This document shows, one piece after another, positions 3,738-31,672 of a stretch of 42,371 bases of DNA. The stretch is from Candidatus Campbellbacteria bacterium RIFOXYC2_FULL_35_25 (lineage in GTDB: Bacteria > Patescibacteriota > Minisyncoccia > Phycocordibacterales > UBA12079). The notes under the pieces were generated by a model that made no database searches, was not told the DNA's origin, and worked only from the letters and a program-made list of their open reading frames with translations. Each line of letters opens with the position of its first letter. Within the stretch, counting starts at the first letter, position 1. The DNA lies in contig MFAE01000002.1 of assembly GCA_001774495.1 (NCBI GenBank), positions 1-42,371 on the forward strand, given 5' to 3'. Both the position numbers and the translations under genes were made by a program.

Positions 3738-3798
3738 TAAATTTCGCGAAGCGAAATTTATACTACAAACTACTCACTACTAACTACAAACTAAAAAA
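3738..3798. repeat. heptad/hairpin intergenic element (rpsE-rplO)
   Basis: taaatttcgc-gaa-gcgaaattta hairpin (3738-3760), then TACAAAC TACTCAC TACTAAC TACAAAC TAAAAAA (3764-3798). Confidence 0.8.
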
Positions 3799-3800
3799 AT

Positions 3801-4232
3801 ATGCAACTTCATAACATACAAAAGAATAAAAATAATAAAAAAAGCATCCGTGTTGGGCGTGGTGGAAAGAGAGGAAAAACTTCCGGTAAAGGACATAAAG
3901 GACAAAACGCAAGAACTGGAAACAGCGGACGACCAGAGATTAGGGATATGATCAAGAAAATTCCTAAGCTAAGAGGTTATAATTTTAAATCTAGAAAAGA
4001 TAATGCTGTTCCTGTTAATTTGTCAGCTCTTGATAAGACTTTTGAGAAAGACGCTATTGTTAATCCTAAAGAGTTAGTTAAAGAAGGTGTCGTGAAAAGA
4101 AAAAGTGGGAAGATGCCAGTTATAAAGATATTAGCAACTGGTGAAATAACAAAAAAAATTACGGTGTCAGGTTGTACTTTTTCTGAAATGGCAAAGGAAA
4201 AAATAGAAAAAGCAGGAGGAACGATTAAGTAG
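3801..4232 (+). CDS. rplO: 50S ribosomal protein L15
   Basis: RVGRGGKRGKTSGKGHKGQNARTG. Confidence 0.96.
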   Translation: MQLHNIQKNKNNKKSIRVGRGGKRGKTSGKGHKGQNARTGNSGRPEIRDMIKKIPKLRGYNFKSRKDNAVPVNLSALDKTFEKDAIVNPKELVKEGVVKRKSGKMPVIKILATGEITKKITVSGCTFSEMAKEKIEKAGGTIK

Positions 4233-4313
4233 TCTATAGTTGGTAGTCTATAGTCTATAGAATTTCGATAGTTTGTAATTTAACACTATAAACTATAAAC
4301 TATCGACTAAAAC
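4230..4313. repeat. heptad inverted element (rplO-secY)
   Basis: TAGTCTA TAGTTGG TAGTCTA TAGTCTA TAG ... CTATAAA CTATAAA CTATCGA CTAAAAC; first heptad contains the rplO stop codon. Confidence 0.8.
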
Positions 4314-4316
4314 ATT

Positions 4317-5585
4317 ATGAATTTTGCGAATAAATTAAACCTAATAATAAAAGATAGTAACCTAAGAAAAAGGATCCTTTATTTGTTAGGTTTTTTAGTT
4401 TTGTTTAGAGTATTAGCGGCTATTCCTGTTCCTGGAGTTGATGTTGCTAAATTACAAGAATTTTTCTCAAACAACCAATTCTTTGGTTTGATGAACATTT
4501 TTTCTGGGGGTGGTTTGTCTGGGCTATCTATCATAATGTTGGGGGTTGGTCCTTATATTACATCATCAATTATTATGCAGTTGATGACAATGATGTCTTC
4601 AAGATTAAAACAGCTTTATCATGAAGAAGGAGAAGCCGGGAAGAAAAAATTTAGTCAGTATTCAAGGTTATTAACTATTCCTTTGGCAGTTGTTCAGGGG
4701 TATGCCTTTCTTACTCTTTTGCAAAGGCAGGGAATTTTGGATAGTCTAGGTTTATTTGAGATGCTAACAAACATAAGTGTTATTGTGGCTGGTTCTGTTT
4801 TGTTAGTTTGGATTGGTGAGTTAATGTCAGAATTTTCTATTGGTAATGGAGTTTCTATAATAATTTTTGCGGGTATAGTTGCTGGTTTACCAACGGCTGT
4901 GAGTCAGAACATTTTTGCTTTTGATATTGCGCAATTACCACTTTATATTGCCTTTTTGTTCCTAGCCGTTTTGATCGTGGCGGGGGTTGTTGTTGTAACG
5001 GAAGCGGAGAGACCTATTCCTATTCAGTATTCAAAAAGAGTTAGAGGGATGAAAGTTTATGGTGGTGTTTCCACATACTTGCCGCTAAGAGTGAACCAAG
5101 CGGGCGTTATTCCTATTATTTTTGCTCTATCAATTTTGTTATTTCCTCAGATGATATTCAATTTTTTGGTGAATGTTAACAATGCCACACTGGTTAAGTT
5201 TTCAGAATTCGTGTTAGGTATTTTGAATAATGGTTGGTTTTACTCTATCTTTTATTTTATCCTAGTATTTTTGTTTACTTATTTTTATACAGCCGTTACA
5301 TTTGACCCAGAAGCTATCGCAACTAACTTACAAAGGAGCGGAGCCTTTATCCCAGGGATACGACCAGGAGCAAATACTTCTCAATACATCGGTAAAGTTT
5401 TGACCAGAATTACATTTGTTGGAGCTTTGTTCCTTGGCTTTATTGCAGTTTTGCCTTTAGTGATGAAAGCTATAACAGGTATCGCTTCTCTGGCTATTGG
5501 GGGAACCGCTCTTTTGATTGTGGTTTCTGTTGTACTGGATTTGGTTAAGAAGGTGGATGGGCAGGTATCAATGAGAGAATACTAA
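4317..5585 (+). CDS. secY: preprotein translocase subunit SecY
   Basis: Multi-TM; ITSSIIMQLM...GEAGKKKFSQYSR...ERPIPIQYSKRV. Confidence 0.98.
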   Translation: MNFANKLNLIIKDSNLRKRILYLLGFLVLFRVLAAIPVPGVDVAKLQEFFSNNQFFGLMNIFSGGGLSGLSIIMLGVGPYITSSIIMQLMTMMSSRLKQLYHEEGEAGKKKFSQYSRLLTIPLAVVQGYAFLTLLQRQGILDSLGLFEMLTNISVIVAGSVLLVWIGELMSEFSIGNGVSIIIFAGIVAGLPTAVSQNIFAFDIAQLPLYIAFLFLAVLIVAGVVVVTEAERPIPIQYSKRVRGMKVYGGVSTYLPLRVNQAGVIPIIFALSILLFPQMIFNFLVNVNNATLVKFSEFVLGILNNGWFYSIFYFILVFLFTYFYTAVTFDPEAIATNLQRSGAFIPGIRPGANTSQYIGKVLTRITFVGALFLGFIAVLPLVMKAITGIASLAIGGTALLIVVSVVLDLVKKVDGQVSMREY

Positions 5586-5587
5586 GT

Positions 5588-5648
5588 TAGTTTTTAGTTG
5601 ATAGTTTTTAGTTTTTAGAAAAAATTCGCCAGAAGGCGATTTTTTTAT
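5588..5648 (+). terminator. heptad repeats merging into a terminator
   Basis: TAGTTTT TAGTTGA TAGTTTT TAGTTTT TAGAAAA, then aaaattcgccagaaggcgattttttt. Confidence 0.65.
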
Positions 5649-5662
5649 TTTTAAACTTTATA

Positions 5663-5698
5663 AAAACGAACAACTCAACAGGTTGAGTTGTTCGTTTT
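5663..5698. terminator. 17-bp perfect stem-loop
   Basis: aaaacgaacaactcaac-ag-gttgagttgttcgtttt. Confidence 0.7.
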
Positions 5699-5758
5699 GG
5701 ATTTGAGGGTGATTGTAATATAATGAAAGTTGTTATTAAGTTAAAAATTTCTAATAAG

Positions 5759-6352
5759 ATGAAAAATCAAACATTCATATTTATAGGTAGATCTGGTTGT
5801 GGTAAGGGAACTCAAATTGACCTTTTATCAGAAAGATTAAAAAAAGATACTCCTGACATAGGCATTAATTATATTAGTACAGGGAAAGACTTAAGAAAAT
5901 TTTGGGCAGAGGAAGGCTACTCGCAAACTCTTTCTAAAGAAATCGTTGAAAATGGTGATTTACAGCCAGAATTTTTGGTGACTTATCTTTGGGGTAAAGA
6001 TTTGGTGGAAGATATGAAAGGTAACGAGCATCTCATTTTAGATGGAACTCCTCGCCGTTTGAACGAAGCCGAAGTGCTTGATTCAGCGATAAGATTTTAT
6101 AAAAGAGAGAATCCAATTGTTATTTACATGAATGTTTCTAGAGAATGGGCGATTGATAGATTGATGGGGCGAGGACGAGCCGATGATACTGTAGAAGGTG
6201 TAAGTAAAAGATTAGATTGGTTTGATCGCGATGTTATCCCTGCTATTGAATATTTAAAAAATAATTCTACTTATAAATTTCTAGACATAAATGGCGAACA
6301 AACTATTGAAGAAGTGAACAAAGAGATTATGGAGAAGGTTTATGGGGTATAA
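5759..6352 (+). CDS. adk: adenylate kinase
   Basis: FIFIGRSGCGKGTQ P-loop, LILDGTPRR, DD...R motif; alternative start 5723. Confidence 0.88.
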   Translation: MKNQTFIFIGRSGCGKGTQIDLLSERLKKDTPDIGINYISTGKDLRKFWAEEGYSQTLSKEIVENGDLQPEFLVTYLWGKDLVEDMKGNEHLILDGTPRRLNEAEVLDSAIRFYKRENPIVIYMNVSREWAIDRLMGRGRADDTVEGVSKRLDWFDRDVIPAIEYLKNNSTYKFLDINGEQTIEEVNKEIMEKVYGV

Positions 6353-6360
6353 TTAAACTA

Positions 6361-7125
6361 ATGATTTATTCTGAAGCAGAAATAAATATCTTACGTGAAG
6401 GGGGTAAAAGACTCGCTTATGTTTTAGGTGAAGTTGCAAAAAAAACTGTTCCAGGAGTAAAAATTTTTGAATTAAATGATTATGCCGAGAAACTTATTCT
6501 GGAAGGAGGTGATACGCCTGCTTTTTTGAATTATAAACCAGAGGGGTCTGGCTTTCCTTATCCTGCAAGTCTGTGCGTTTCGGTTAATGAGGGGATTGTT
6601 CACGGTATTTCAAATGGCAACAGTAGGGTTTTAAAGGATGGTGACGTCGTTGGTCTTGATCTTGGTCTTAGACACAATGGTTTTGTTACAGACATGGCGG
6701 TAACTGTTGGAGTAGGCAAGGTAGATAATGAGTCTAGGAAGCTCATAGAAGCCACAAAACAGGCTCTCTATGAAGGAATTGGACAAGCTAGGGCGGGAAA
6801 CACAACTGGCGATATAGGCCACGCCGTAGCTGAATTTGGAAAAAAAGCCAGGTTTAATGTAGCTGAAGATTTGGGAGGTCACGGTGTTGGAAAAAATGTC
6901 CACGAAGAACCTTTCATCCCCAATTTTGGCAGAAAAGGAAGTGGAGATAAATTAAGGTCAGGTATGGTTTTGGCGATTGAACCGATGTTGAATGCGGGTA
7001 CAAAAAGAATTGTTTTAGATGATGATGGATACACTTTCAATACTGCCGATGGAAAAAAGAGTGCTCACTTTGAACACACTATTTTGATAACTAATGGGGA
7101 ACCAGAGATTTTAACAAAGATTTAA
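6361..7125 (+). CDS. map: type I methionine aminopeptidase
   Basis: CVSVNEGIVHGI, GDVVGLDLGL, GGHGVGKNVHEEPFIPNFG, LAIEPML. Confidence 0.97.
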   Translation: MIYSEAEINILREGGKRLAYVLGEVAKKTVPGVKIFELNDYAEKLILEGGDTPAFLNYKPEGSGFPYPASLCVSVNEGIVHGISNGNSRVLKDGDVVGLDLGLRHNGFVTDMAVTVGVGKVDNESRKLIEATKQALYEGIGQARAGNTTGDIGHAVAEFGKKARFNVAEDLGGHGVGKNVHEEPFIPNFGRKGSGDKLRSGMVLAIEPMLNAGTKRIVLDDDGYTFNTADGKKSAHFEHTILITNGEPEILTKI

Positions 7126-7239
7126 CCAAGACCAAGACCAAGACCAAGACCAAGACCAAGACCAAGACCAAGACCAAGACCAAGGCCAAGGCCAAGACCA
7201 AGACCAAGGCCAAGGCCAAGGCCAAGGTTAGGGTTAGGG
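7126..7239. repeat. hexamer tandem array: 17 x CCAAGR followed by 2 x TTAGGG
   Basis: Direct read; starts on the base after the map stop codon. Confidence 0.97.
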
Positions 7240-7284
7240 TTTTTATTGAATAATAATTTTAAATAATTTATAATTTAATTTTAA

Positions 7285-7326
7285 TCTTTCTGATAAAAAT
7301 AGCGGTCGCTATTTTTATCAGAAAGA
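7285..7326. repeat. long palindrome upstream of the PaaX/Cas2-like gene
   Basis: tctttctgataaaaatagcg-gt-cgctatttttatcagaaaga; 20-bp perfect arms. Confidence 0.95.
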
Positions 7327-7359
7327 ATATCAAAGTATGGGTAAAAGAATTATATAAAA

Positions 7360-7938
7360 ATGGAAAAAATAAAGAAAAAAAGAAAGTTACGGGTTCCTGT
7401 TAAAAAAATTATTTTGGCTACCATTGCAATAGCTGGTCTCGTATCTGTAGCTGTTGTTGCCCCAAATGCTTTGCAGGCCATCGGGTATTTTTCTGGAAAT
7501 AAGAAATATAAAAAATATGATCAAAAATATTATGTTAACAGCGTAGTTGGCGGGTTGTTAAAAAAAGATTTAATTAAACTCGAAATAAAAAATGGTAAAA
7601 AATACATTCGTTTAACAAAGAAAGGAGAGCAAGAGTTAGCCCGATTAGAATTAAATGATTTTAAAATAAAAAAGCCAAAAAAATGGGATAAAAAGTGGCG
7701 GATTGTAATTTTTGATATTAAAGAGACAAGGAAAGGTACTAGGACTATTTTAAGAAGCACATTGAGTAGATTAGGTTTTGTAAAATTACAAAATAGTGTT
7801 TGGGTATTTCCTTATGATTGCAAAGAATTAATTGTAATGATGAAATCCAGTTTATTTTTAGGTAAAGATGTCTTGTATATGACTGTAGAAAAGATAGAGA
7901 ATGATAAATGGCTAAAAGAAGTTTTTGGGTTGAAATAA
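7360..7938 (+). CDS. PaaX-like protein with Cas2-like C-terminal domain and N-terminal hydrophobic segment
   Basis: WRIVIFDIKETRKGTRTILRSTLSRLGFVKLQNSVWVFPYDC (PaaX-C/Cas2-like ferredoxin-fold signature); N-terminal IILATIAIAGLVSVAVVAPNAL. Confidence 0.75.
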   Translation: MEKIKKKRKLRVPVKKIILATIAIAGLVSVAVVAPNALQAIGYFSGNKKYKKYDQKYYVNSVVGGLLKKDLIKLEIKNGKKYIRLTKKGEQELARLELNDFKIKKPKKWDKKWRIVIFDIKETRKGTRTILRSTLSRLGFVKLQNSVWVFPYDCKELIVMMKSSLFLGKDVLYMTVEKIENDKWLKEVFGLK

Positions 7939-7980
7939 TTCTGATAAAAATGACGGCCGTCATTTTTATCAGAATTATTT
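7933..7980. repeat. 48-nt perfect palindrome overlapping the stop codon of the PaaX/Cas2-like gene
   Basis: aaataattctgataaaaatgacgg/ccgtcatttttatcagaattattt; shares TTCTGATAAAAAT with 7285-7326. Confidence 0.95.
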
Positions 7981-8057
7981 TTTTGCTAAAGATCTTTTGT
8001 TTTTAACGTTTGGTTATGTTAATATATTGGCAATATTAACTTAATTTTTATAGAATT

Positions 8058-8663
8058 ATGGAACATTTTAGTAAAGAGAAAACATTAGTCATGGTTAAAC
8101 CAGACGGGATACAAAGAACTTTGGTTGGCGAAATTATTAAACGTTACGAAAGAGTCGGTCTTAAACTAGTTGGCTTAAAGATGATTGCTCCTAGTAAGGA
8201 GAAAATTGAGGAACACTATACCCTTGACCCAGAATGGAGAAGAATAACAGGAGAAAAGACAATAGAAAGTTATAAAAAAAAGGGCTTACAACCACCTTCA
8301 GAAAATCCTTTGGAGATTACTGCTATTATATTAGAAAATCTTAAAAAATATATGACAAGCGGTCCTGTTATTGCTATGGTTTGGCAAGGGGCCCACGCAG
8401 TTAAGATTTCAAGGAAGATTGTTGGTGGGACAGAGCCGTTCACTTCAGACGTTGGTACTATTCGGGGAGATTTTGTTCTAGATTCCTACCAAATGTCGGA
8501 TGCAGACGGGAGAGCTGTTCGGAATTTAATCCATGCCTCTGGTTCGGTTGAAGAAGCCGAAAAAGAAATAAAACATTGGTTTGAAGAAAGTGAAATTATA
8601 AGTTACAGGTTGGTACAAGAGCAAATGCTTTACGACGTAAACATCGACGGTATTTTTGAATAA
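8058..8663 (+). CDS. ndk: nucleoside diphosphate kinase (with internal insertion)
   Basis: TLVMVKPDGIQRTLVGEIIKRYE...GTIRGDF...NLIHASGSVEEAEKEI. Confidence 0.93.
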   Translation: MEHFSKEKTLVMVKPDGIQRTLVGEIIKRYERVGLKLVGLKMIAPSKEKIEEHYTLDPEWRRITGEKTIESYKKKGLQPPSENPLEITAIILENLKKYMTSGPVIAMVWQGAHAVKISRKIVGGTEPFTSDVGTIRGDFVLDSYQMSDADGRAVRNLIHASGSVEEAEKEIKHWFEESEIISYRLVQEQMLYDVNIDGIFE

Positions 8664-8743
8664 TTTTTTAATACTTTAAAATATTTCTTTTTACCGGAAT
8701 CGAGCATCCTTTTGCATCGTTGCCTCTACTTGGTTAAACGACT

Positions 8744-9433
8744 ATGGCTCAAAAAAAAGTTTGGGAAAAAGAATATCAAAATCCAAAGTTAGTGACAGGC
8801 TATGATAAGCCTCAGGCTTTTTTTCTTAAATTTTTGAAATATATAAAAAAGGATTTGGGTTTGAATCTGGGAAATTTTAGAATTCTTGACTTAGGTTCTG
8901 GCACAGGAAGGAATGCTAATTACCTTGCTCAAAAGGGAGCCCAAGTAATTGGAATAGAAATTTCTGATACAGCAATAAATTTAGCTAAAAACAGAGCAAA
9001 AGAAATTGGGGCGGAGACCAAATATATCAAACAGAGTATTGGCGAAAAATACCCCTTTGATGATAAAAGTTTTGATTTAGTTGTCGATATTACTTCATCC
9101 AATTCCTTGGATGAGAATGAAAGAGAGATTTATCTTTCTGAAGTTTTTAGGGTTTTGAAAAAAGATGGAATATTTTTTGTGCGAGCTTTGTGCAAGGACG
9201 GGGATAAAAATGCAAAATTTCTTTTGAAAAATAATTCTGGGAAGGAAAAAGATACTTATATAATGCCAGAGACATGTTTGGTTGAGAGAGTTTTTTCAAA
9301 AGATGATTTTATTCAAATTTATTCAAAATATTTTAAAATATTAAAAATGGAAAAAACAGAAAGTTATTCCACGATAAATAATCGCCAATTTAAAAGAAAT
9401 TTTTGGTTAGTTACTTTGATTCCTGGGCAATAA
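8744..9433 (+). CDS. class I SAM-dependent methyltransferase
   Basis: ILDLGSGTGRNANYLAQKGAQVIGIEIS...EVFRVLKKDGIFF. Confidence 0.88.
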   Translation: MAQKKVWEKEYQNPKLVTGYDKPQAFFLKFLKYIKKDLGLNLGNFRILDLGSGTGRNANYLAQKGAQVIGIEISDTAINLAKNRAKEIGAETKYIKQSIGEKYPFDDKSFDLVVDITSSNSLDENEREIYLSEVFRVLKKDGIFFVRALCKDGDKNAKFLLKNNSGKEKDTYIMPETCLVERVFSKDDFIQIYSKYFKILKMEKTESYSTINNRQFKRNFWLVTLIPGQ

Positions 9434-9549
9434 GCATTGTAATATAAGGGGCAGTCCACGCTCTGGTTATTTTGGTAAACAGTATTTGTTTTGTAGATTA
9501 CAAAACAAAAATAAATTTGCTTCAAGTATTGCAAGATTCTGTGGGGGTG

Positions 9550-9749
9550 TATAATTGTAGTAGAGCTATTTGGAACATTCCTACTAAAGCATCACAAGGG
9601 AATTCGTCGTATTGTTGCATTCAGGTGTAGCGCTCGGAATACCCACCTATGTAAAGAATAGGGATGGTGCTCCAGATAGTTCGTAGAAAAACCAGCACCG
9701 TATTTGGAATTAATTTAGAAAAATAATTTCAAATACGGAGCTGGTTTTC
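9550..9749 (+). ncRNA. candidate structured small RNA of unidentified family, promoter -10 to terminator
   Basis: TATAAT at 9550; pairable CATTCCTA/TAGGGATG and AGGTG/CACCT; bipartite terminator 9687-9749; no convincing ORF. Confidence 0.45.
9687..9749 (+). terminator. Rho-independent terminator
   Basis: ccagc-a-ccgtatttg...caaatacgg-a-gctgg followed by tttt. Confidence 0.75.
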
Positions 9750-9782
9750 TAAATTTTGGTGGTTATTGATAGGGAGGACTTT

Positions 9783-10208: not shown

Positions 10209-10227
10209 AATTTGTTAGAATACTTAA

Positions 10228-10248
10228 TATAATATAATATAATATAAT
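10228..10248 (+). repeat. 5-bp tandem repeat forming four overlapping TATAAT boxes
   Basis: tataatataatataatataat at 10228-10248, 7 nt before ATG 10256. Confidence 0.9.
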
Positions 10249-10255
10249 TTTTAAT

Positions 10256-10888: not shown

Positions 10889-10906
10889 GAAATAAACAAA
10901 TAAAAT

Positions 10907-17612: not shown

Positions 17613-18023
17613 ATGTCAACAGTTAATCAATTACTAAAAAAGAGAAGAAAAAAAGATCCTAGAAAACCTAAGGCTATTGCTTTGAGCAAGGGTTTTAATC
17701 TTAAGAAAAATAAACCAACAACTTACCCATCTCCTTTCAAAAGGGGGGTTTGTGTTAAAGTAACTACCAAGACTCCAAAGAAGCCTAACTCAGCAGTTAG
17801 AAAGATTGCTAGAGTTCGTCTGACAAATGGAATGGAGGTAACAGCATATATTCCAGGAATGGGACACACACTTCAAGAGCACTCAGTTGTTATGCTAAGA
17901 GGGGGAAGAGTAAAAGACGTAGGAATTCGTTATACAATTGTCCGCGGAAAATTAGATACAACAGGAGTTGAAAAGAGAAGACAGAGCAGAAGTTTGTACG
18001 GGGCTAAAAAACCAAAGAATTAG
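17613..18023 (+). CDS. rpsL: 30S ribosomal protein S12
   Basis: [13 protein letters not shown]...[18 protein letters not shown]...GVKDVG-like region. Confidence 0.98.
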
Positions 18024-18118
18024 TAAGTAGTTGGTAGTGAGTAGTGAGTAGCAAAAAATTTGCAAAGCAAATTTTTTAAAAAGCTGTAAACTGTGAGCTG
18101 TCAGCTGTAAACTTAAAA
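18021..18118. repeat. heptad/hairpin element (rpsL-rpsG)
   Basis: TAGTAAG TAGTTGG TAGTGAG TAGTGAG TAG + aaaaaatttgc-aaa-gcaaatttttt + CTGTAAA CTGTGAG CTGTCAG CTGTAAA CTTAAAA; includes the rpsL stop. Confidence 0.85.
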
Positions 18119-18121
18119 AAT

Positions 18122-18592
18122 ATGAGAAGACCAATAAAAGACAAAAGAAATATTCAACCAGACAGAGTTCATGACTCATTGGTTTTAGAGCGTTTTATAA
18201 ATTATGTTATGTGTGACGGTAAAAAAAGTGTCGCAAGAAAAGTAGTTTATGGTGCTTTAGAAAATATAAAAGAAAAAGCAAAAACAAAAGACCCTATTGA
18301 AGTTTTCAATGGAGCTATAAAAAATGCTGGTCCTTTAATGGAAGTTAAGTCTAGAAGAATCGGAGGAGCTAACTATCAGGTACCTAGAGAAGTTCCAGAA
18401 AAGAGAAGATTAGCCCTTGCTATGAGATGGATTCTTGAGGCAGCTAGAGCAAAAAAAGGATCTTCAATGAGTAAAAGATTGGCTGATGAATTGATTGCTG
18501 CAAATAATAATGAAGGAGAGGTTATAAAGAAGAAAGAGAATGTACACAAGATGGCTGACGCGAACAAAGCTTTTGCTCATTTTGCATGGTAA
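18122..18592 (+). CDS. rpsG: 30S ribosomal protein S7
   Basis: MRRPIKDKRNIQPDRVHDSLVLERFINYVMCDGKKSVA...GGANYQVPREVPEKRR. Confidence 0.97.
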   Translation: MRRPIKDKRNIQPDRVHDSLVLERFINYVMCDGKKSVARKVVYGALENIKEKAKTKDPIEVFNGAIKNAGPLMEVKSRRIGGANYQVPREVPEKRRLALAMRWILEAARAKKGSSMSKRLADELIAANNNEGEVIKKKENVHKMADANKAFAHFAW

Positions 18593-18875: not shown

Positions 18876-18903
18876 CTAAAAACTAAAAACTAGCAACTAA
18901 AAA
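18876..18903. repeat. heptad array preceding fusA ATG
   Basis: CTAAAAA CTAAAAA CTAGCAA CTAAAAA, then CTATG (ATG at 18906). Confidence 0.85.
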
Positions 18904-18905
18904 CT

Positions 18906-21056
18906 ATGAGCAGAGATTACCCATTGGAAAAAGTTAGAAATATTGGAATTATTGCCCACATTGATGCGGGAAAAACAACTGTGTCCGAAAGAGTTCTTTT
19001 TTACACAGGACTTTCGCATAAAATCGGTGAAGTTCACGAAGGTGAAGCTACTATGGACTGGATGGAACAGGAGAGAGAAAGGGGTATCACAATTACTTCT
19101 GCTGCTGTTACAACATTTTGGACGCCAACTTATGCTACAGGTAATGACTCTTTGAAACATCGTTTTAATATTATCGATACTCCTGGACACGTTGACTTCA
19201 CCGCTGAGGTGGAAAGGTCTCTTAAAGTTTTAGACGGAGGTGTAGTCGTTTTCGACGGTGTAGCCGGAGTAGAATCACAATCAGAAACCGTTTGGAGACA
19301 AGCTGATAAATATAAAGTTCCTAGGATTTGTTTCATCAATAAATTAGATAGAACTGGTGCTTCTTTCGATAGGTCTTTCAAGTCCATTATAGATAGACTA
19401 ACACCTAACGCTGTTAGAGCTCAATTGCCTATAGGAGAAGAGGGAAATCACGAAGGTGTAGTGGATCTTTTAACGATGAAAGCTTACTACTTTGAAGGAA
19501 ATATGGGGATGGATGTTAGGGAAGATGAGATTCCCGCAGACATGAAAGCCGAGGCTGAAAAATTCAGAGGAGAATTTATTGAAAAAATTGTTGAAAACGA
19601 CGAGGCGTTAATGAATGATTATCTAGAAGGGAAAGAAATTCCTCTTGATAAACTAAAAGCGACCTTGAGAAAAGGAGTAATTGCTTTGCAAATAATTCCT
19701 GTTTTTACAGGTTCTGCTCTAAAAAATAAGGGAGTTCAAAAAATGCTAGACGCCGTTGTTGATTATCTTCCTTCTCCACTCGATGTCCCTGCTATTAAAG
19801 GAATCGATCCTAAGACAGATAAAGAAGTTGAAAGACCTTCTGATGACAATGCTCCTTTTGCAGCTTTGGCTTTCAAATTGCAAACAGACCCGTTCGTAGG
19901 ACAATTAACTTTTTTTAGAGTTTATTCAGGAACTGTTGAAGCTGGTTCATACATTTACAATTCAACAACTGGTGAAAAAGAAAGACTAGGAAGAATCGTG
20001 AGAATGCATGCCAACGACAGAGAAGAGGTAAAGAAAGTTTATGCTGGAGAAATTGCAGCCGCTGTTGGTCTAAAAAGTACAAGAACATCAGATACTTTGT
20101 GTGATGAAAACAATCCAGTTATTCTAGAGAAGATTGAATTTATGAAACCTGTTGTGGCCGTAAGAATTGAACCTAAGACTAAGGCTGACCAAGAAAAGAT
20201 GGGGTTAGCTTTGAAGAAACTATCAGATGAAGATCCAACTTTCACAATAAATACAGATGCTGAAACTATGGAAACTATTATTGCTGGTATGGGAGAACTT
20301 CACTTGGAAGTTTTGGTAGACAGAATGAGAAGAGAATTTGGTGTTGAAGCTAATATCGGTAAACCTCAGGTTGCCTATAGAGAAACGATTCAAATACCAT
20401 CTTCTGCCGAAGTCAAATATGTTAAGCAGTCTGGAGGTAAGGGTCAGTATGGTCATGTTAAGATTAGAATTAAACCGTTAGAAAAATTAACAGAAGAAGA
20501 GATAAAGAACCTTCCTAAAAATACTAAGAGATTTGATGGAGGAATAGAATTTGTTAACAGTATTAAAGGAGGAGTTATTCCACAGGAATATATTCCTGCT
20601 GTAGAAAAAGGAATTAAAGAAGGAATGGAAAGAGGGGTTGTGGCTGGTTATAAGATGGTGGATGTTTCAACAGAATTATATGATGGTACTTACCACGACG
20701 TAGACTCATCAGAAATTGCTTTCAAGATTGCTGCATCACAAGCTTTTCAAGAAGCAGCAAGAAAAGCTAACCCAGTTTTACTTGAGCCCATTATGAAAGT
20801 CGAGGTTGTTACCCCAGAAGAATTTATGGGAGACGTAACTGGAAACCTAAGTTCAAAGAGAGGTCAAATTGATTCAATGGACGACAGAGGAGGGAACAGA
20901 GTAGTGAATGCTAAAGTTCCGTTGTCAGAAATGTTTGGGTACACAACTACTTTAAGGTCTATGACAGAAGGAAGAGCTTCTTCAACAATGGAGTTTGACC
21001 ACTATGATGTTGTTCCTGTTAATGTAGCTAAGGAGATAGTTGAGAAGAGGAAATAG
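18906..21056 (+). CDS. fusA: elongation factor G
   Basis: [24 protein letters not shown]...DTPGHVDF. Confidence 0.99.
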
Positions 21057-24723: not shown

Positions 24724-24749
24724 TCCTTTTTGACCCTTTGTACCCTTAC

Positions 24750-25021: not shown

Positions 25022-25639
25022 ATGAAATTTATTCTGGGAACAAAAGAACAAATGACGCAAGTCTTCAACAAAGAAGGTGTGGTTTTTCCTGTTACAATTA
25101 TAAGTGCAGGACCAATTACAGTAACCCAGATTAAAAACAAAGAAGGGGATGGTTACGAATCTATCCAAGTTGGCTACGGAGAAAAGAAAGAAAAAAATAT
25201 AAACAAACCTATGAAGGGACATTTGAAGGATTTGGGAAATTTTAGATATTTGAAAGAATTTTCTAATCCAGACAATACTCCTTTTGAAGTAAAAGTTGGT
25301 GACAAGATCGACGTTTCTTCTTTTAAAGAAGGGGAAGAAGTTGTTGTTTCATCAATCAGCAAAGGTAAGGGTTTCCAAGGTGTTGTGAAGAGACACAATT
25401 TCTCAGGAGGTCCTCGTTCACATGGGCAGAAACACAGCGAGAGAAAGCCAGGTTCAATCGGCTCCACAGGCCCTCAGAAGGTGTTTAAGGGAACAAGGAT
25501 GGCTGGAAGGATGGGAAGTGACAGGGTGACTGTTAAAAATCTTGAAATCGTTCAAATTGATAAAGAGAATAACCGAATATTAATAAAAGGAGCAATTTCT
25601 GGAAGACGAGGAACTTTAGTAGAAATAGTATCTACATAG
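25022..25639 (+). CDS. rplC: 50S ribosomal protein L3
   Basis: MKFILGTKEQMTQVF...GKGFQGVVKRHNFSGGPRSHGQKHSERKPGSIG. Confidence 0.97.
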   Translation: MKFILGTKEQMTQVFNKEGVVFPVTIISAGPITVTQIKNKEGDGYESIQVGYGEKKEKNINKPMKGHLKDLGNFRYLKEFSNPDNTPFEVKVGDKIDVSSFKEGEEVVVSSISKGKGFQGVVKRHNFSGGPRSHGQKHSERKPGSIGSTGPQKVFKGTRMAGRMGSDRVTVKNLEIVQIDKENNRILIKGAISGRRGTLVEIVST

Positions 25640-25743
25640 TTTACAGATGACAGTTTACAGTTTACAGAGCAAATTTTGGCTAAAGCTAAAATTTTCCAGA
25701 AAGAAAAACTGTAAACTGTAAACTGTAAACTGTAAACTTAAAA
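25637..25743. repeat. heptad/hairpin element (rplC-rplD)
   Basis: TAGTTTA CAGATGA CAGTTTA CAGTTTA CAG + aaattttggct..agctaaaattt + 4 x CTGTAAA + CTTAAAA; arms nearly fully complementary. Confidence 0.88.
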
Positions 25744-25746
25744 ATT

Positions 25747-26523
25747 ATGAAAACAGATATCTACAATCAAAACGGAAAAAAAACAGGTGAAATTTCATTA
25801 CCAGAGTCTGTTTTTGGTGTTGCTTTTAATAATGATTTGGTTCACCAGGTGGTGGTTTCTATGATGTCCAATAAGAGAGCCCCTATTTCTCATACAAAAG
25901 ACAGGGGAGAAGTTAGCGGAGGAGGTATAAAGCCATGGAGACAAAAAGGAACAGGACGAGCAAGACATGGTTCTAGCCGTTCACCGATTTGGCGTGGTGG
26001 AGGTGTAACTTTTGGCCCAACAAACGAAAAGAATTACAGTAGAAAAATAAACAAGAAAACAAACACAAAGGCTCTTTACACCGTTTTGTCACAGAAGTAC
26101 AGAGACGGAGAAATTCTTTTTGTGGATAATTTTGAATTAAAAGAACCTAAATCAAAAGATGCAAGAAATATTGTTTCTGATTTGAGCAACGTAAAAGGTT
26201 TTGAAGGGATGCTTTCCAAGAGAAAAAATTCACTACACATTGCTTTGGGAGACAAAGACAAGAACGTAGAAAAAAGTTTTAATAACTTTGGGAATATTCA
26301 AATTGGTGAAGTAAGAAATTTAAATATTTTAAATATTTTAAATTATAAATATTTGGTTATTTCTAATCCAGATAAAAGTATTGAATTCTTGACTGGTAAA
26401 AAAGGCGTTGAAAAAAACAAAGAAACAAAAACAGTTAAGAAAGTAGAAAAAAAAGAAGTAGTAAAAGAGGTAGAAGCAAAAGTTAAAGAAACAAAAGCTA
26501 AAAAAACAACAGTTAAAAAATAA
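25747..26523 (+). CDS. rplD: 50S ribosomal protein L4 with Lys/Glu-rich C-terminal tail
   Basis: KPWRQKGTGRARHGSSRSPIWRGGGVTFGP. Confidence 0.96.
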   Translation: MKTDIYNQNGKKTGEISLPESVFGVAFNNDLVHQVVVSMMSNKRAPISHTKDRGEVSGGGIKPWRQKGTGRARHGSSRSPIWRGGGVTFGPTNEKNYSRKINKKTNTKALYTVLSQKYRDGEILFVDNFELKEPKSKDARNIVSDLSNVKGFEGMLSKRKNSLHIALGDKDKNVEKSFNNFGNIQIGEVRNLNILNILNYKYLVISNPDKSIEFLTGKKGVEKNKETKTVKKVEKKEVVKEVEAKVKETKAKKTTVKK

Positions 26524-26531
26524 AGGTGATG

Positions 26532-26587
26532 TAAAAAAATTTGCGAAGCAAAATTTTTACTAAAAACTATCAACTATCAACTAAAAA
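26532..26587. repeat. hairpin plus heptad element (rplD-rplW)
   Basis: aaaaaaatttgc-gaa-gcaaaattttt + CTAAAAA CTATCAA CTATCAA CTAAAAA, then CTATG. Confidence 0.85.
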
Positions 26588-26589
26588 CT

Positions 26590-26898
26590 ATGAAAAACGT
26601 TTCAGATATAAAAAATAATATAGGTAAATCAGAAGGAGTAATTTTGAATCCGAGAATTACAGAAAAGTCTTCAGATAAAACTGCTGAAAATGTTTATGTT
26701 TTTGATGTTTCTCTTAGGGCAAATAAGGTACAAATAAAAGAAGCAATAAAAAATATCTATAAAGTTGAACCTAGAAAAATTAATGTTAGTAAAGTAGTAG
26801 CAAAGAACGTTTTCTCAAGAGGGAGAAAAGGGGTTAAGACAGGAGGAAAAAAGGCTTTTGTTTTCTTGAAGAAAGGAGACAAGATAGACATAATTTAA
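26590..26898 (+). CDS. rplW: 50S ribosomal protein L23
   Basis: VILNPRITEKSSDKTAENVYVFDVSLRANKVQIKEAIKNIYKVEPRKINV. Confidence 0.95.
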   Translation: MKNVSDIKNNIGKSEGVILNPRITEKSSDKTAENVYVFDVSLRANKVQIKEAIKNIYKVEPRKINVSKVVAKNVFSRGRKGVKTGGKKAFVFLKKGDKIDII

Positions 26899-26902
26899 GC
26901 TA

Positions 26903-26990
26903 ACAGATTACAGCTGACAGCTGACAGCAAAAAATTTGCGAAGCAAATTTTTAAAAAGGCTGTAAACTGTAAACTGTGAGCTGTAAGCTT
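26903..26990. repeat. heptad/hairpin element (rplW-rplB)
   Basis: ACAGATT ACAGCTG ACAGCTG ACAG + aaaaaatttgc-gaa-gcaaattttt + CTGTAAA CTGTAAA CTGTGAG CTGTAAG CTT. Confidence 0.88.
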
Positions 26991-27053
26991 CATTAATAAT
27001 TAAAGTTCGCAATAGCTGATAATTATTGCAGGCCGTAGAGCCGATATAAAAAC

Positions 27054-27896
27054 ATGAAGATAAATAAACCAACAACACCATCAAGAAGACACATGACCGG
27101 TATAAATTACCGAGATTTTTTGACAGCTTCTGAACCACATAAAGCTCTTACGAAAGGTGGAAAGAGGGGGGTAGGAAGAAACGCTTTCGGAAGAATCACA
27201 ACAAGACACAAAGGAGGAGGTCATAAGAGAAAATATCGTCAAATTGATTTTAAATATAATAAATTTAATATTCCAGCAAAGGTAGAAACTGTTGAGTATG
27301 ATCCATACAGATCAGGTTTTATTGCTTTGGTATGTTACGAGGACGGAGAAAGAAGATATGTTTTAGCTCCAAAATCTGTGAAGGTTGGAGACAAGATGAT
27401 TGTTTCAGAAAAGGCAGAATTGAAAGCTGGAAACAGAGTAATGCTAAAAAATGCTCCCGTTGGTACTTATGTTTACAATGTTGAGATAAAACCGTTGGGT
27501 GGAGCAAAGATTGCAAGGTCAGCTGGAAATTATGCAGAAGTAATTGCTCATGACTCTGGATACATGCACCTAAAGATGCCTTCATCAGAAATTAGAAAAG
27601 TTTTAGATACTTGTTGGGCTTCTATTGGAGAAGTTTCAAATGATGAACATAAATTGGTTGTTATTGGAAAAGCCGGAAGATCTCGATGGATGGGAATAAG
27701 GCCAACCGTTAGAGGTAGTGCCATGAACCCAGTTGACCACCCTTATGGAGGCGGAGAAGGAAAGTCAGGACGAGGTTTGAGAAGAGCCAAGACAAAGTGG
27801 GGCAAGCCATCAGGAAAGGGTCAAAAGACAAGAACACCGAAGAAATATTCAAATCAACTTGTTGTTAGAAGGAGAAAGGTTGGTAAGAAGCGATAA
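27054..27896 (+). CDS. rplB: 50S ribosomal protein L2
   Basis: GRITTRHKGGGHKRKYRQIDFK...NPVDHPYGGGEGKSGRG. Confidence 0.98.
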   Translation: MKINKPTTPSRRHMTGINYRDFLTASEPHKALTKGGKRGVGRNAFGRITTRHKGGGHKRKYRQIDFKYNKFNIPAKVETVEYDPYRSGFIALVCYEDGERRYVLAPKSVKVGDKMIVSEKAELKAGNRVMLKNAPVGTYVYNVEIKPLGGAKIARSAGNYAEVIAHDSGYMHLKMPSSEIRKVLDTCWASIGEVSNDEHKLVVIGKAGRSRWMGIRPTVRGSAMNPVDHPYGGGEGKSGRGLRRAKTKWGKPSGKGQKTRTPKKYSNQLVVRRRKVGKKR

Positions 27897-27930
27897 TTAT
27901 TTTAATTCAAAGTTTGAAATTATTTAAACA

Positions 27931-27963
27931 AAAAAACAATGGTTAAGGCCATTGTTTTTTTTT
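27931..27963 (+). terminator. Rho-independent terminator closing the rplB cluster
   Basis: aaaaaacaatgg-ttaagg-ccattgttttttttt. Confidence 0.9.
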
Positions 27964-27977
27964 GTGTTTTTAAACTA

Positions 27978-28006
27978 TTGACACTATTAAATAAGTAGCA
28001 TATAAT
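27978..28006 (+). promoter_or_regulatory. perfect-consensus sigma70 promoter
   Basis: TTGACA - 17 bp - TATAAT. Confidence 0.9.
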
Positions 28007-28012
28007 GTAAGT

Positions 28013-28197
28013 AAGAAAGAGAGTTGATTGTAACTTTTTGGTGAAGTTTTCCAAATCACTCCCCGTTCGCGCCCGGCGGAACCGGCTGTGGATGAAAGCT
28101 CCACGTAAGAGGGGTGGTAGGCTGAGTTCTTATAGCCGAACCACGTATCTAGAGAGTGATGCTGTGAGAAACCCCGTCGATTGGATGACGGGGTTTT
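28013..28197 (+). ncRNA. candidate multibranched structured RNA of unidentified family
   Basis: Consensus promoter; ATCACTC/GAGTGAT closing stem (28055-28061/28154-28160) with three internal hairpins; GC-rich versus surroundings; terminator 28169-28197. Confidence 0.65.
28169..28197 (+). terminator. Rho-independent terminator
   Basis: aaaccccgtc-gattggat-gacggggtttt. Confidence 0.9.
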
Positions 28198-28253
28198 CGC
28201 GTCTATCAGGAATCGTTTTTGCTACTAGGCTTAATAATTGATATTATATTACC

Positions 28254-29258
28254 ATGGTACAAAAAGTTCCTCCTAAAAATATAAAAGATATTGAGTTATC
28301 TCCTAAATCAATGACTATTGGCCTGTTGTCTTTGTTGGGTTTAGTCACTATATTTTTTAGTTTTTCTAGTTATATAAAATACAAAGAAAGAACAACTTTA
28401 AATAATGAGCAAGTCCAAACCTTACTTTCAAATTACGAAAAAAATCTTGAAGACCTTCAAAAAGAAGTTAATTCTTTAAGATTGGAAAGTGAGGGTGAGG
28501 TTTATGAAATAAAGAGAAAGTTAGCCGAAGAGGAAACTGTTAGAAAAGCGATTGAGCAAGAAAAACAATTTCAGGAAAAAATTTCTCAAGAAAAAATTAA
28601 TAATTTGGAAGCACGGCTTTCAGAAACCAGTTTGTCTCAGGACCTGACCTCTATAATAAAGCAATGGGAACCACTTATTGTTTATATAGCTTGTGACTCT
28701 AAATTAGCCAATTCTAATACTCACTATGATACTAGTGGTTCAGGCATAATGCTGAAATTCGAAGGAGAAGATGTAAAGGTTTTAACAAATAGGCATGTTT
28801 TACAAAGTCCCGATTCTTATAATTTAAGATTTTGTAGTATTGAGTTGCCCGATGGTAATTCAGAATATTCTGTTGGCATTGGAGATATTGAAGTCTCTGT
28901 TTCTGAGTATGATTGGGGAACTCTAAGTATAAAAAATCCTGATGTTTATACTTCGAAACTAACATCAACTTTGCCAAAATTTTGTGAGCAAAGGCCGTCT
29001 TTAGGAGACGAAATAGTCGTACTAGGCTTCCCTGGTATTGGGTCTACGGATAGCGTCACTGCTACCGACGGCATAATTGCAGGTTTTGATGGAAATTATT
29101 TTATAACTTCAGCAAAAGTAGACCAAGGCAATTCTGGCGGCGCTGCGATTTTAACAAAAAATAATTGTTTATTAGGGATTCCGACATTTGCTTCCTTGGG
29201 ACAAGTAGAGTCTCTGGCTAGAATTTTAGATATTTGGACTGTAATTGTTAAAAAATAA
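28254..29258 (+). CDS. membrane-anchored trypsin-like serine protease with coiled coil
   Basis: N-terminal TM, coiled coil, SGSGIMLKFEG..LTNRHVL, DWGTLSI, VDQGNSGGAAI. Confidence 0.85.
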   Translation: MVQKVPPKNIKDIELSPKSMTIGLLSLLGLVTIFFSFSSYIKYKERTTLNNEQVQTLLSNYEKNLEDLQKEVNSLRLESEGEVYEIKRKLAEEETVRKAIEQEKQFQEKISQEKINNLEARLSETSLSQDLTSIIKQWEPLIVYIACDSKLANSNTHYDTSGSGIMLKFEGEDVKVLTNRHVLQSPDSYNLRFCSIELPDGNSEYSVGIGDIEVSVSEYDWGTLSIKNPDVYTSKLTSTLPKFCEQRPSLGDEIVVLGFPGIGSTDSVTATDGIIAGFDGNYFITSAKVDQGNSGGAAILTKNNCLLGIPTFASLGQVESLARILDIWTVIVKK

Positions 29259-29349
29259 GGCAAAAATTTGACTTGTATATATTTAAAATGTTATCTTCAC
29301 GTAAGAAGCTTAATTCAGTTCTTTTTAACTAAGGAGAAAGGAGGCCCTT

Positions 29350-30036
29350 ATGAAGATAAAAATTTTTTGTTCCGTGTCGTTTATTGTTTTTTTCTTATGG
29401 ACAGGAAACATTTGGGCCTTTGAAAAATTGGAAATTTCTAGAGGCGTAGAATGGAAAGCTTTCGTTCACAGCAATCTTGTTTTAGGAGAAACTGAAGCGA
29501 ACAAAAACCCCCGTTATTTTAATGGCATGCGGGTTAAGCCTAAGTCTGTTTCCGGGGCTTATGTTTACGGCACTCAGCTTGAGTGGAATAAGTCTGACTG
29601 GGAAATAAATTTTGATTTGAAAGGCAAGTTAGAGTTGGCTCTTAATAAGATTGGGAATTTAGAATTTTCGACACAAGTCAAAAGAGGAGGGGAGTTTGGT
29701 TATCTATCCGTTGATACACAATGGTCAGAAGATCTTTTTCGGGTAGGTTTTAATTTTGAGCAAAAAAATTCTAGAACAACTCTAAAAAATGTTTTTTATT
29801 ACGTAGACAATGGTGTTTTTGGAGGAAATTTGTTTGTCGGGTATCTCCCTTCAAAATGGGTAGAATTTCACGCCCAGATTAGTGGGGAGAAAAATGTTCA
29901 AGAGTCGTTTAAAGCAGTTTGGGTGAATGGTTTAACCTTTTCATTCCCTCGGCAGATGAGTCTTTCGTTCGATTATGAAATCCACGAAAATCAGGAGGCT
30001 GATGCAATACAGGTTTGCTGGAAGTTCCTTTTTTGA
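29350..30036 (+). CDS. secreted beta-strand-rich protein, porin-like C-terminus
   Basis: AAGGAGG SD; signal peptide MKIKIFCSVSFIVFFLWTGNIWA; alternating beta pattern ending ...VCWKFLF. Confidence 0.6.
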   Translation: MKIKIFCSVSFIVFFLWTGNIWAFEKLEISRGVEWKAFVHSNLVLGETEANKNPRYFNGMRVKPKSVSGAYVYGTQLEWNKSDWEINFDLKGKLELALNKIGNLEFSTQVKRGGEFGYLSVDTQWSEDLFRVGFNFEQKNSRTTLKNVFYYVDNGVFGGNLFVGYLPSKWVEFHAQISGEKNVQESFKAVWVNGLTFSFPRQMSLSFDYEIHENQEADAIQVCWKFLF

Positions 30037-30058
30037 TTATTCTTCTTAGATTTTTGGG

Positions 30059-30100
30059 AGGTCGGAAGTTCAGCTTATGGCTGAACCTCCGACCTTTTTT
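30059..30100 (+). terminator. Rho-independent terminator
   Basis: aggtcgga-agttcagc...gctgaacc-tccgaccttttttt. Confidence 0.9.
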
Positions 30101-30306
30101 CTATATTTTGATAGCATATATTAATGAAAAGTTGCTAGTCGGGGGTATTTTCCTTAGGCTTGAAAAATGTATCCGAATTACTGAATGTTAAATGATAGGG
30201 AAATGACTAGACAAGAAAGGAGTTATGATGTGGACTATCTTGCTTAAGTAGTATATATCTAGCAAAGTTTAACAATTTTGATATAATATAGATTATTATT
30301 AACAAA

Positions 30307-30372
30307 AGTTTTTAGATAGCAGTTTTTAGTTTTTAGAGATAGTGAAAACTTTGCTTTACAAATTTTCACTTA
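30307..30372. repeat. degenerate heptad/hairpin element
   Basis: gtttttagatagcagtttttagtttttagagatag + gtgaaaa...ttttcac + ttactactcg. Confidence 0.6.
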
Positions 30373-30408
30373 CTACTCGATATTAGATGTTTGCTACTTA
30401 TTTATATT

Positions 30409-30618
30409 ATGAACAATACAGTAAAATGGGTAATAGGAGTAATTGTTGTTGCAGCAATAGTTTGGTTTGGTTTCATGAACAAATCAGAAGTTAAAGAAGA
30501 AGCAATAACAGAAGACACAACAACAGAAGAGGTTATGGATGTTGAAGTGAATATAGACGTTGTAGATCCAGGAGTTTCTGCAGATACAGAAGTTCCTACT
30601 GAAGAAGTAGCTCAATAA
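30409..30618 (+). CDS. small single-TM protein with acidic tail
   Basis: MNNTVKWVIGVIVVAAIVWFGFMNKSEVKEEAITEDTTTEE... Confidence 0.6.
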   Translation: MNNTVKWVIGVIVVAAIVWFGFMNKSEVKEEAITEDTTTEEVMDVEVNIDVVDPGVSADTEVPTEEVAQ

Positions 30619-30639
30619 TAAATTTATTATTGATATAAA

Positions 30640-30678
30640 ATAAAAAACTACCTGTACAGGTAGTTTTTTATTTTATAT
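30640..30678. terminator. palindromic terminator
   Basis: aaaataaaaaactacctgt/acaggtagttttttatttt. Confidence 0.85.
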
Positions 30679-30775
30679 TGCTATCTTAGAATTTTTTATT
30701 ATATTTTGATATTATAATAGTATCCTATTTTAGGTACTTTCAGCTTTATAAATTTTTAACTTTTTACTAATTTTT

Positions 30776-31672
30776 ATGCCAGAGTTACCAGAGGTACAAA
30801 CAATCGTGAATGATTTGAATAAGAAAGTTGTTGACCAGCAAATCATTGATTTTTGGAGTGATTGGAAAAAGAATGTTCGTCCAAGTTTTTTGAAATTTAA
30901 AAAAAAAGTTTCCGGAGCAAAAATCTTGGGGGTGAGGAGAAGGGGGAAACATATTGTTATTGATTTAGGTAATAAAAACTCGATTATTATTCATTTAAAA
31001 ATGTCAGGACACCTCTTGTACAAGCCGACAGCTGACAGCTTACAGCTAACAGCTAGAAGAAATTTTGGCTCCGCCAAAATTTCTTCTAAAAATGATTATT
31101 TTGAAGAGAGGGTGAATCAATATGTGCACCATAAATTCAGTTTGAAAAGTGGAGCAACTTTGGAATTTTCAGATATGAGAAAGTTTGGGTGGCTGTGGGT
31201 TGTTGCGACTGATGAAGTGGAAAATATTAAAGAAATTAAAAAATTAGGAATTGATGCTATGAGTGAAAATTTTAGTTTAAAAATTTTAAAAGATATTTTG
31301 AAAAGAAAGGTAAAAAGTATTATAGGAATTGTTCTTTTAGATCAAGGATTAATTGCAGGAATTGGTAACATTTACCGAAGTGAAATTTTATTTGAGGCAG
31401 AGGTTAATCCAAAAAGAAAAATTTTAACACTAAAAGAAAAAGAGATTGAAAAAATTTTTAAGGCAATAAATTTAATATTAAAAAAAGCAGTAAGAATGAG
31501 GGGGACTTCTGATGTTGATTATCGTGATACAGAAGGGAAGCCTGGCAGTTTCCAAAATGTTTTGAGAGTATACGGGAGAGACGGAGAAAGGTGCTTGGGG
31601 TGTAGAGGTTTGGTAATAAGGGAAAAGCTTGGACAAAGAAGCATATTCTTTTGCCCAAAGTGTCAGAAATAA
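30776..31672 (+). CDS. mutM: formamidopyrimidine-DNA glycosylase (with in-frame repeat insertion)
   Basis: MPELPEVQTIVNDL...IGNIYRSEILFEAEVNP...RSIFFCPKCQK zinc finger. Confidence 0.95.
   Translation: MPELPEVQTIVNDLNKKVVDQQIIDFWSDWKKNVRPSFLKFKKKVSGAKILGVRRRGKHIVIDLGNKNSIIIHLKMSGHLLYKPTADSLQLTARRNFGSAKISSKNDYFEERVNQYVHHKFSLKSGATLEFSDMRKFGWLWVVATDEVENIKEIKKLGIDAMSENFSLKILKDILKRKVKSIIGIVLLDQGLIAGIGNIYRSEILFEAEVNPKRKILTLKEKEIEKIFKAINLILKKAVRMRGTSDVDYRDTEGKPGSFQNVLRVYGRDGERCLGCRGLVIREKLGQRSIFFCPKCQK
31027..31087. repeat. heptad/hairpin element inside the mutM coding sequence
   Basis: GACAGCT GACAGCT TACAGCT AACAGCT + agaagaaattttggc-tcc-gccaaaatttcttct (15-bp perfect stem). Confidence 0.92.

Follow-up and report, generated by a model that had tools for sequence, protein, structure and literature searches.

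The window analysed here is a 42,371 bp stretch (35% GC; bases 1-42,371 of contig 2) of the genome of Candidatus Campbellbacteria bacterium RIFOXYC2_FULL_35_25, referred to below as G000. Its gene junctions carry arrays of tandem 7-nt words (heptads), AG-sense (such as TAGTTTT) after stop codons and CT-sense (such as CTGTAAA) before start codons, often as two arms around a small hairpin. A preliminary description of this DNA had listed about ten such loci; we confirmed the heptad arrays and counted about 190 of them genome-wide in G000, well beyond the window. The explanation we prefer, to which we give an even chance of being right, is that the arrays belong to a family of short palindromic repeats, dispersed and non-autonomous, that would act at the DNA level, with words homogenised by gene conversion or template switching.

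G000 (782,376 bp, 15 contigs, completeness rating 100%) was compared with G007, a complete single-contig genome of the same genus (752,630 bp); with G008, also of that genus, 88% complete and sampled over 103 kb only; and with G010, a further close relative. Most relatives compared were metagenome assemblies. The genes of G000 came from a home-made hexamer caller (742 genes, 79% coding) whose calls are approximate, and the sense and polarity tallies rest on the called start positions. Array detection was thresholded, and an array scored as absent is one below the threshold. Window loci were read directly, and Tandem Repeats Finder (TRF) was run independently.

TRF reported period-7 arrays at every listed window locus except the weakest. 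The 42 spacers of the window held 16 period-7 arrays, compared with a mean of 0.23 and a maximum of 2 in 200 order-1 Markov simulations. Across G000, TAG repeated three times at 7-nt spacing occurred 244 times, against 1-13 times at the other spacings tried (5-12), and the pattern TAGTNNNTAGTNNNTAGT gave 156 matches against 12 for the reversed pattern. Period-7 tandem segments numbered 166 (144 intergenic), with 3-34 at other periods (4-14), the period 14 counts being partly a harmonic of period 7. G007 showed 158 period-7 segments and 4-38 at other periods. The preliminary view that the heptads are not random low complexity was borne out at genome scale, where their frequency is far above chance and they form a genome-wide family.

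Heptad words fell into classes, in each of which two or three letters varied around an invariant core. The classes of G000 included TAGTYKW, TAGTNNG, CAGTTTA, CAGCYNA and AAGTANN among others, and its commonest heptads included TAGTTTT, TAGTGAG, TAGTTTA and CAGTTTA. Many unrelated classes (TAGT, CAGC, AAGT, GAAT, AATTT) coexisted within one genome, and the homogeneity within each locus noted earlier was seen again. Arm length peaked at 30-32 nt, typically 31 nt (four heptads and about 3 bases), in both G000 and G007.

The three-part design of left arm, hairpin and right arm, described earlier for the loci as a group, was complete at four loci (4230-4313, 18021-18118, 25637-25743 and 26903-26990); the other loci were one-armed, and 3054-3081 was marginal. 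The recurrent AAATTTGC-GAA-GCAAATTT hairpin of the preliminary description was present, exactly or almost exactly, at no more than about three loci, with different centres elsewhere. GCGAAGC was enriched in intergenic DNA (65 observed, 4.9 expected), part of this excess being due to other palindromes. Several elements folded much better than shuffled sequences (z -3.5 to -9.6). Rfam 15 searched at the gathering score matched only large-subunit (LSU) rRNA in the window and no heptad element.

Presence of the arrays changed rapidly between related genomes. Comparison of orthologous tandem junctions between G000 and G007 showed arrays in both genomes at 20, in G000 only at 25, in G007 only at 27 and in neither at 89; 20 of the 72 occupied junctions were common to the two. 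The rpsE-rplO spacer was 80 nt in G000 and 7 nt in G007, and the rplD-rplW spacer 66 nt and about 2 nt, respectively. Arrays per 100 kb numbered about 1 in the 103 kb of G008, 20.7 in both G000 and G007, and 31.5 in G010. The rplO-secY spacer of G008 held a one-heptad version (TAGTTTACAG...CTGTAAA). Orthologous spacers thus did not carry the same sequence with mere point divergence, the outcome that would have spoken against the family as first described.

The words themselves also changed. G007 and G010 orthologs share 91.7% protein identity, and several of their junctions held elements alike in build but unrelated in their words; at one junction the left arm alone had changed and the hairpin was kept, and another junction was unchanged. 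We rejected spacer divergence between G007 and G010 as a general proof of replacement, since array-free spacers were likewise bimodal, and replacement is therefore claimed for single cases only. Two junctions had GCTG words in G000 where G007 had GCTA words. The word dialect was specific to each genome. Some whole elements had 85-89% identical copies over at least 100 nt; the rpsL-rpsG element, with both arms and the hairpin, was 88% identical over 103 nt to an element on contig 1. Separately, G010 had a REP-like (repetitive extragenic palindromic) palindrome (CCTGCCTGCCGGC...) inside the heptad array at the ortholog of G007 409529, which was not in G007.

Arrays were also found in frame inside protein-coding genes. 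The locus at 31027-31087, listed earlier alongside the intergenic ones, proved to lie within mutM: the element spans 31023-31087 and falls in MutM between MSGHLLYK and YFEERVNQY. The same site held a different palindrome in G007, A/T heptads in G010 and a shorter loop in remoter family members. In-frame arrays occurred in both G000 and G007 in leucyl-tRNA synthetase (LeuRS), TsaD, a glycosyltransferase and type IV pilin leaders; in G000 they occurred in a class I aminoacyl-tRNA synthetase, and in G007 in topoisomerase I, MnmA and another class I synthetase. Four heptads stood at the same codons of TsaD, the words being CTACYMA in G000 and CTAAAAA in G007; three pilin leaders showed the same shift in register. 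A class I aminoacyl-tRNA synthetase of G000 (contig C6:61792-65475, L034) had a histidine-phosphatase domain between its synthetase segments.

AG-sense arrays start at or just after stop codons, and CT-sense arrays end 0-10 nt before start codons. Within 15 nt of gene ends in G000, arrays before a start were in the CT sense in 52 cases and in the wrong sense in 8, and arrays after a stop were in the AG sense in 45 and in the wrong sense in 16; the G007 equivalents were 54 vs 10 and 38 vs 11. Of 43 genes bearing an AG arm, 25 had TAG as their stop codon, compared with 108 of 570 genes lacking one, which indicates that the array often supplies the stop codon. A stop-codon safety net in all frames was rejected as a general function, because the CAGTTTA class has no stops in the AG sense. 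Arrays were borne by 99/486 tandem (20%), 13/75 convergent (17%) and 18/75 divergent spacers (24%), and an inverted-repeat element would produce such polarity in all three orientations. In spacers of 150-600 nt, 34 of 83 and 34 of 67 arrays lay within 15 nt of the edge of a coding sequence, where 11.9 and 10.4 were expected. Many elements were one-armed, and two-armed spacers exceeded the expectation for independent arms (10 vs 2.4; 8 vs 2.8).

Arms in the same spacer paired better than permuted arms in G007 and not in G000, where left and right arms often came from different, non-complementary word classes; the rough complementarity of arms proposed earlier is therefore not reliable. In other Paceibacteria the arms were mirror copies, the inverted comparison beating the direct one in 36 of 45 pairs. 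Among 46 tandem arm pairs, mismatches on the coding strand comprised 35 G.U and 45 A.C (p=0.31, with modest power), so there was no sign of selection for pairing on the mRNA strand. Pairing between the 5' and 3' arms of a single gene's mRNA was tried as a candidate and was not above permutation.

Sites in coding loops, the equal use of spacer orientations and rapid presence and absence together point to a process at the DNA level. In the explanation we prefer, elements whose arms hold roughly four degenerate heptads, in many cases flanking a small hairpin, would be rapidly gained, lost and replaced at gene junctions and, in frame, within tolerant protein loops. Ectopic gene conversion or template switching, aided by the fold-back arms and hairpin, would keep the words of an array alike and let the words of a genome drift in concert. 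Whole elements would occasionally be copied, and an enzyme presumably lies behind new copies. Siting at the edges of coding sequences may mainly reflect tolerance, the genome being compact and making little use of Shine-Dalgarno sites. Of the mechanisms first offered, the best fit is to gene conversion or to a hairpin element that spreads; simple slippage mispredicts the data, as discussed below.

Several results weigh against this explanation. A second copy (at least 60 nt at 85% identity or more) was found for just 13/88 and 6/69 spacers. No target-site duplication was seen at occupied and empty junctions of G007/G010 and G000/G007, although the spacers there are too diverged or wholly replaced. 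The anchoring of arrays at gene edges in long spacers is not obviously predicted by plain tolerance, and in adjacent arms of G000 the inverted arrangement (14) was barely above the direct one (11). Neither an agent nor a transposon with heptad ends was found, and none of the RAYT-like (REP-associated tyrosine transposase) Y1 genes, six in G000 and three in G007, was flanked by a heptad array.

An alternative that we regard as improbable is that the arrays are mRNA elements. CT arms would then be unstructured or protein-bound initiation regions, AG arms 3' untranslated regions, and paired arms insulating intercistronic stem-loops. The polarity fixed relative to genes, the placement of CT arms 0-10 nt from start codons and the folding of several elements are consistent with this, and MacGregor proposed translational regulation for TAACTGA repeats of the same polarity (PMC4679880). 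A Shine-Dalgarno motif was present in none of 49 CT-arm genes, though in only 8% of other genes; such sites being rare genome-wide, their absence says little, and we rejected the arrays as a Shine-Dalgarno replacement on that ground. The mRNA explanation does not account for like arrays inside protein-coding loops, for convergent spacers being equally often occupied, or for the quick turnover of words and presence even before ribosomal protein genes. It also meets no G.U excess and arms that often come from non-complementary classes, and an inverted-repeat element would yield the same polarity automatically.

Pure local replication slippage with fold-back mutation, without mobility or exchange between loci, would explain the homogeneity within loci and the one-heptad version at rplO-secY in G008, and cyanobacterial repeats show changes by 7-nt units (PMC4679880, PMC4476775). 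We nevertheless consider it unlikely. Period 7 alone is expanded, array lengths in two genomes have their peak at 31 nt rather than declining, full elements whose two arms are of different classes recur at unlinked loci, and the same word sets recur genome-wide. The length peak, the polarity at gene ends and the changing of words together at separate loci are what disfavour simple slippage.

We see only a slim chance that a trans-acting protein, binding DNA or RNA with 7-nt periodicity, recognises the arrays and that the dialects reflect co-evolution with it. A fixed core with few variable positions per class, the shared length peak and species word sets that differ in register would suit such a protein. 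On the other side are the many unrelated classes in one genome, the poor fit of the MutM, TsaD and LeuRS coding loops as regulatory sites, and the lack of a candidate protein. Similarly doubtful is a putative active array writer in Patescibacteria that would write or rewrite short arrays in the chromosome, each some four 7-nt words long, drawing on a word set particular to the genome. If it were true, hundreds of sites, including in-frame ones in essential genes, would be re-lettered together as species diverge, by a process that would be templated and telomerase-like or conversion-like.

The wider distribution was examined in 148 genomes of the order, where the AGY heptad pattern was patchy and the words varied by genome. 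In 31 of the 148 genomes the hits numbered 15 or more and reached three times the count of the reversed control, while 49 had two hits or fewer in all. The closest SecY relatives in named collections were Candidatus Paceibacterota and Campbellbacteria, which places G000 among the Patescibacteria in the Paceibacteria group. Among named Paceibacteria, 80 SecY loci totalling 1.3 Mb held 121 period-7 arrays, with 2-24 at other periods. In the same 148 genomes, Y1_Tnp was present in 44 of 52 heptad-rich and 46 of 96 heptad-poor genomes (odds ratio 6, p ~1e-5), while reverse transcriptase showed no association with heptad richness (p=0.6). Reverse transcriptase was rejected as the agent on this lack of association and because heptad-rich G007 had no RVT_1 hit.

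It is very unlikely that the arrays are REP elements or bacterial interspersed mosaic elements (BIMEs) mobilised by RAYT (Y1) transposases: the Y1_Tnp association and the small hairpin at the centre of many elements favour this, but the perfect palindromes on either side of Y1 genes are of another kind, eight heptad-rich genomes (one with 168 heptad hits) had no Y1 hit at all, and the association may be a by-product of general repeat tolerance. Most Y1 genes were bracketed by their own perfect palindrome (e.g. GGGCTGTCGGACAGCCC) in G000 (C6, C7, C10) and G007 (L060, L077, L078), and these palindrome-flanked Y1 genes are a separate REP-like system in Patescibacteria. In G003, of the same family, an identical 24-mer, AGCGTCAAGTTTACAGTTGTCAGT, occurred at many places, several of them about 104 nt from a contig start, and is probably an insertion sequence end.

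Degenerate heptanucleotide tandem repeats (short tandemly repeated repetitive sequences, STRR) are dispersed in the spacers of heterocystous cyanobacteria. By general description rather than by word sequence, they resemble the present arrays in being dispersed degenerate heptad tandem repeats; they differ in having other words, and are not known to have the inverted two-arm build or gene-edge polarity.

TAACTGA heptamer direct repeats occur in marine Beggiatoaceae, Cyanobacteria and Bacteroidetes, with one indirect repeat among 170 sets and no known mechanism (MacGregor 2015, PMC4679880). Like the arrays described here they are intergenic tandem heptads, in two to six copies, patchy across relatives; they end just before start codons, lie within ribosomal operons and before fusA, and their forward word corresponds to the CT sense before starts, an orientation read for BOGUAY (PMC4679880). 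They differ in using one fixed word without an inverted arm and hairpin, where G000 has many degenerate classes and in-frame sites in conserved protein loops, and TAACTGA (AG-sense CAGTTAT) was absent from the 70 commonest heptads of G000. The P6b stem of the Nostoc trnL intron carries the heptad classes TDNGATT and NNTGAGT, similarly with degenerate heptads of few classes on both stem sides and whole-region replacement in related strains (PMC4476775). It is a single intron stem that must pair, whereas the dispersed arrays of G000 often have unmatched arms. The earlier statement that no named family fits held for Patescibacteria, for which we found no description of such elements in the literature searched (subscription journals and preprints fell outside it), though not for degenerate heptads as such, which are known in cyanobacteria and Beggiatoaceae (PMC4476775, PMC4679880).

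Rickettsia palindromic elements (RPEs) are about 150 bp long with family-conserved sequence and, in a reduced genome, occupy spacers and in-frame sites in unrelated proteins as palindromes (PMC10969869), as here; the present elements are 60-110 bp long with genome-specific heptad words, and only the 7-nt design is common to them. REPs and BIMEs are likewise short, genome-specific spacer palindromes in many copies, but REPs have no heptads, the RAYTs of G000 carry other palindromes, and the central hairpins here vary by locus, with no single conserved hairpin and conserved foot tetranucleotide. In comparison with miniature inverted-repeat transposable elements (MITEs) and their terminal inverted repeats, two-armed elements had inverted heptad arms, by 36 to 9 over direct ones in other genomes but by 14 to 11 in G000, and many elements had one arm only; near-identical copies are few (13/88, 6/69 spacers) and no related autonomous transposon was found. 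None of the known systems compared matches in full, and we favour regarding the elements, by analogy, as REP/RPE-like in behaviour and cyanobacterial-heptad-like in build.

The loci of the window were catalogued by TRF for arms (all on the + strand) and by reading and folding for hairpins. Loci lie within or beside the ribosomal clusters of S12, S7, EF-G, L3, L4, L23 and L2; the S5, L15 and SecY genes were identified by gene order and sequence. A weak, marginal array (3054..3077; TAGTTAC twice and a degenerate unit, 2.3 copies) occupies the short spacer between the open reading frame (ORF) 2702-3049 and the rpsE-like ORF 3082-3720. The hairpin TAAATTTCGC-GAA-GCGAAATTTA, which includes GCGAAGC (3738..3760), is followed by a CT-sense right arm (3762..3797; CTACAAA, CTACTCA, CTACTAA) 4 nt from the start of the rplO-like ORF at 3801. 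The rplO-secY element consists of an AG-sense left arm (4230..4260; TAGTCTA, TAGTTGG), whose first TAG is the stop of ORF 3801-4232, an AT-rich centre without a GC-based hairpin (4261..4284) and a CT-sense right arm (4285..4313; ACTATAA twice, ACTATCG) just 5' of the secY ATG at 4317. Directly 3' of the secY stop there is an AG-sense left arm without a right arm (5587..5618), and folding gave a terminator-like hairpin after it (5619-5650).

The rpsL-rpsG element has an AG-sense left arm (18018..18051; TAGTGAG, TAGTTGG) overlapping the rpsL stop (TAG 18021), the hairpin AAAAAATTTGC-AAA-GCAAATTTTTT (18052..18079) and a CT-sense right arm of another class (18081..18115; GCTGTAA, GCTGTCA) 5' of the rpsG ATG at 18122. 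A single CT-sense arm (18876..18906; CTAAAAA three times, CTAGCAA) adjoins the fusA ATG at 18906. Between the rplC-like ORF 25022-25639 and the rplD ATG at 25747, an AG-sense left arm (25637..25667; CAGTTTA) starts at the rplC stop, followed by the central hairpin AAATTTTGGC-TAAA-GCTAAAATTT with its flank, found by folding (25668..25705), and a CT-sense right arm (25706..25746; CTGTAAA four times); the two arms fold together into a -42 kcal/mol stem. The hairpin AAAAATTTGC-GAA-GCAAAATTTTT (26533..26558) precedes a CT-sense right arm (26559..26590; CTAAAAA, CTATCAA) that adjoins the rplW ATG at 26590. Beyond the rplW stop stand an AG-sense left arm (26903..26928; CAGCTGA, CAGATTA), the hairpin AAAAAATTTGC-GAA-GCAAATTTTT (26929..26958) and a CT-sense right arm of the GCTGTAA class (26959..26990), at whose junction G007 has GCTATCA-class words. 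A weak AG-sense arm (30309..30336; TAGTTTT, one irregular unit) is followed by a hairpin to 30372. The mutM element (31023..31087) is an AG-sense arm (CAGCTGA CAGCTTA CAGCTAA) with the perfect hairpin AGAAGAAATTTTGGC-TCC-GCCAAAATTTCTTCT, in frame in the ORF 30776-31672.

Other features were seen beside the heptad elements. The sequence GTTCGCAATAGCTGATAATTATTGCAGGCCGTAGAGCC, which separates the heptad element from the start of rplB (26990-27053), has a recognisable counterpart in G007 though the adjoining heptads have switched class; it is possibly a ribosomal protein leader, and its fold was not significant by itself (z -0.7 and -1.0). The hexamer ACCAAG is repeated 17 times at 7125-7226, at the end of ORF 6361-7125, and the start of a 23S rRNA gene (39640-42371) is cut by the window end. 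Octad arrays (period 8, AACARARR-like) at G000 contigs C7:658, C8:653 and C14:684 sit after near-identical duplicated gene ends and are followed by differing terminators and heptad arms.

Despite the very small size of Patescibacteria genomes, spacers between ribosomal protein genes are filled with these elements, which also intrude into essential proteins. Gene callers and alignments are affected, as the repeat often supplies stop codons, start sites and protein loops. If the elements do spread, or if their words are rewritten into dialects, rapid change other than by point mutation would reach both the spacers and the proteins of a large bacterial radiation, and the isolated reports of heptads in cyanobacteria and Beggiatoaceae, with the same polarity at start codons, would be linked.

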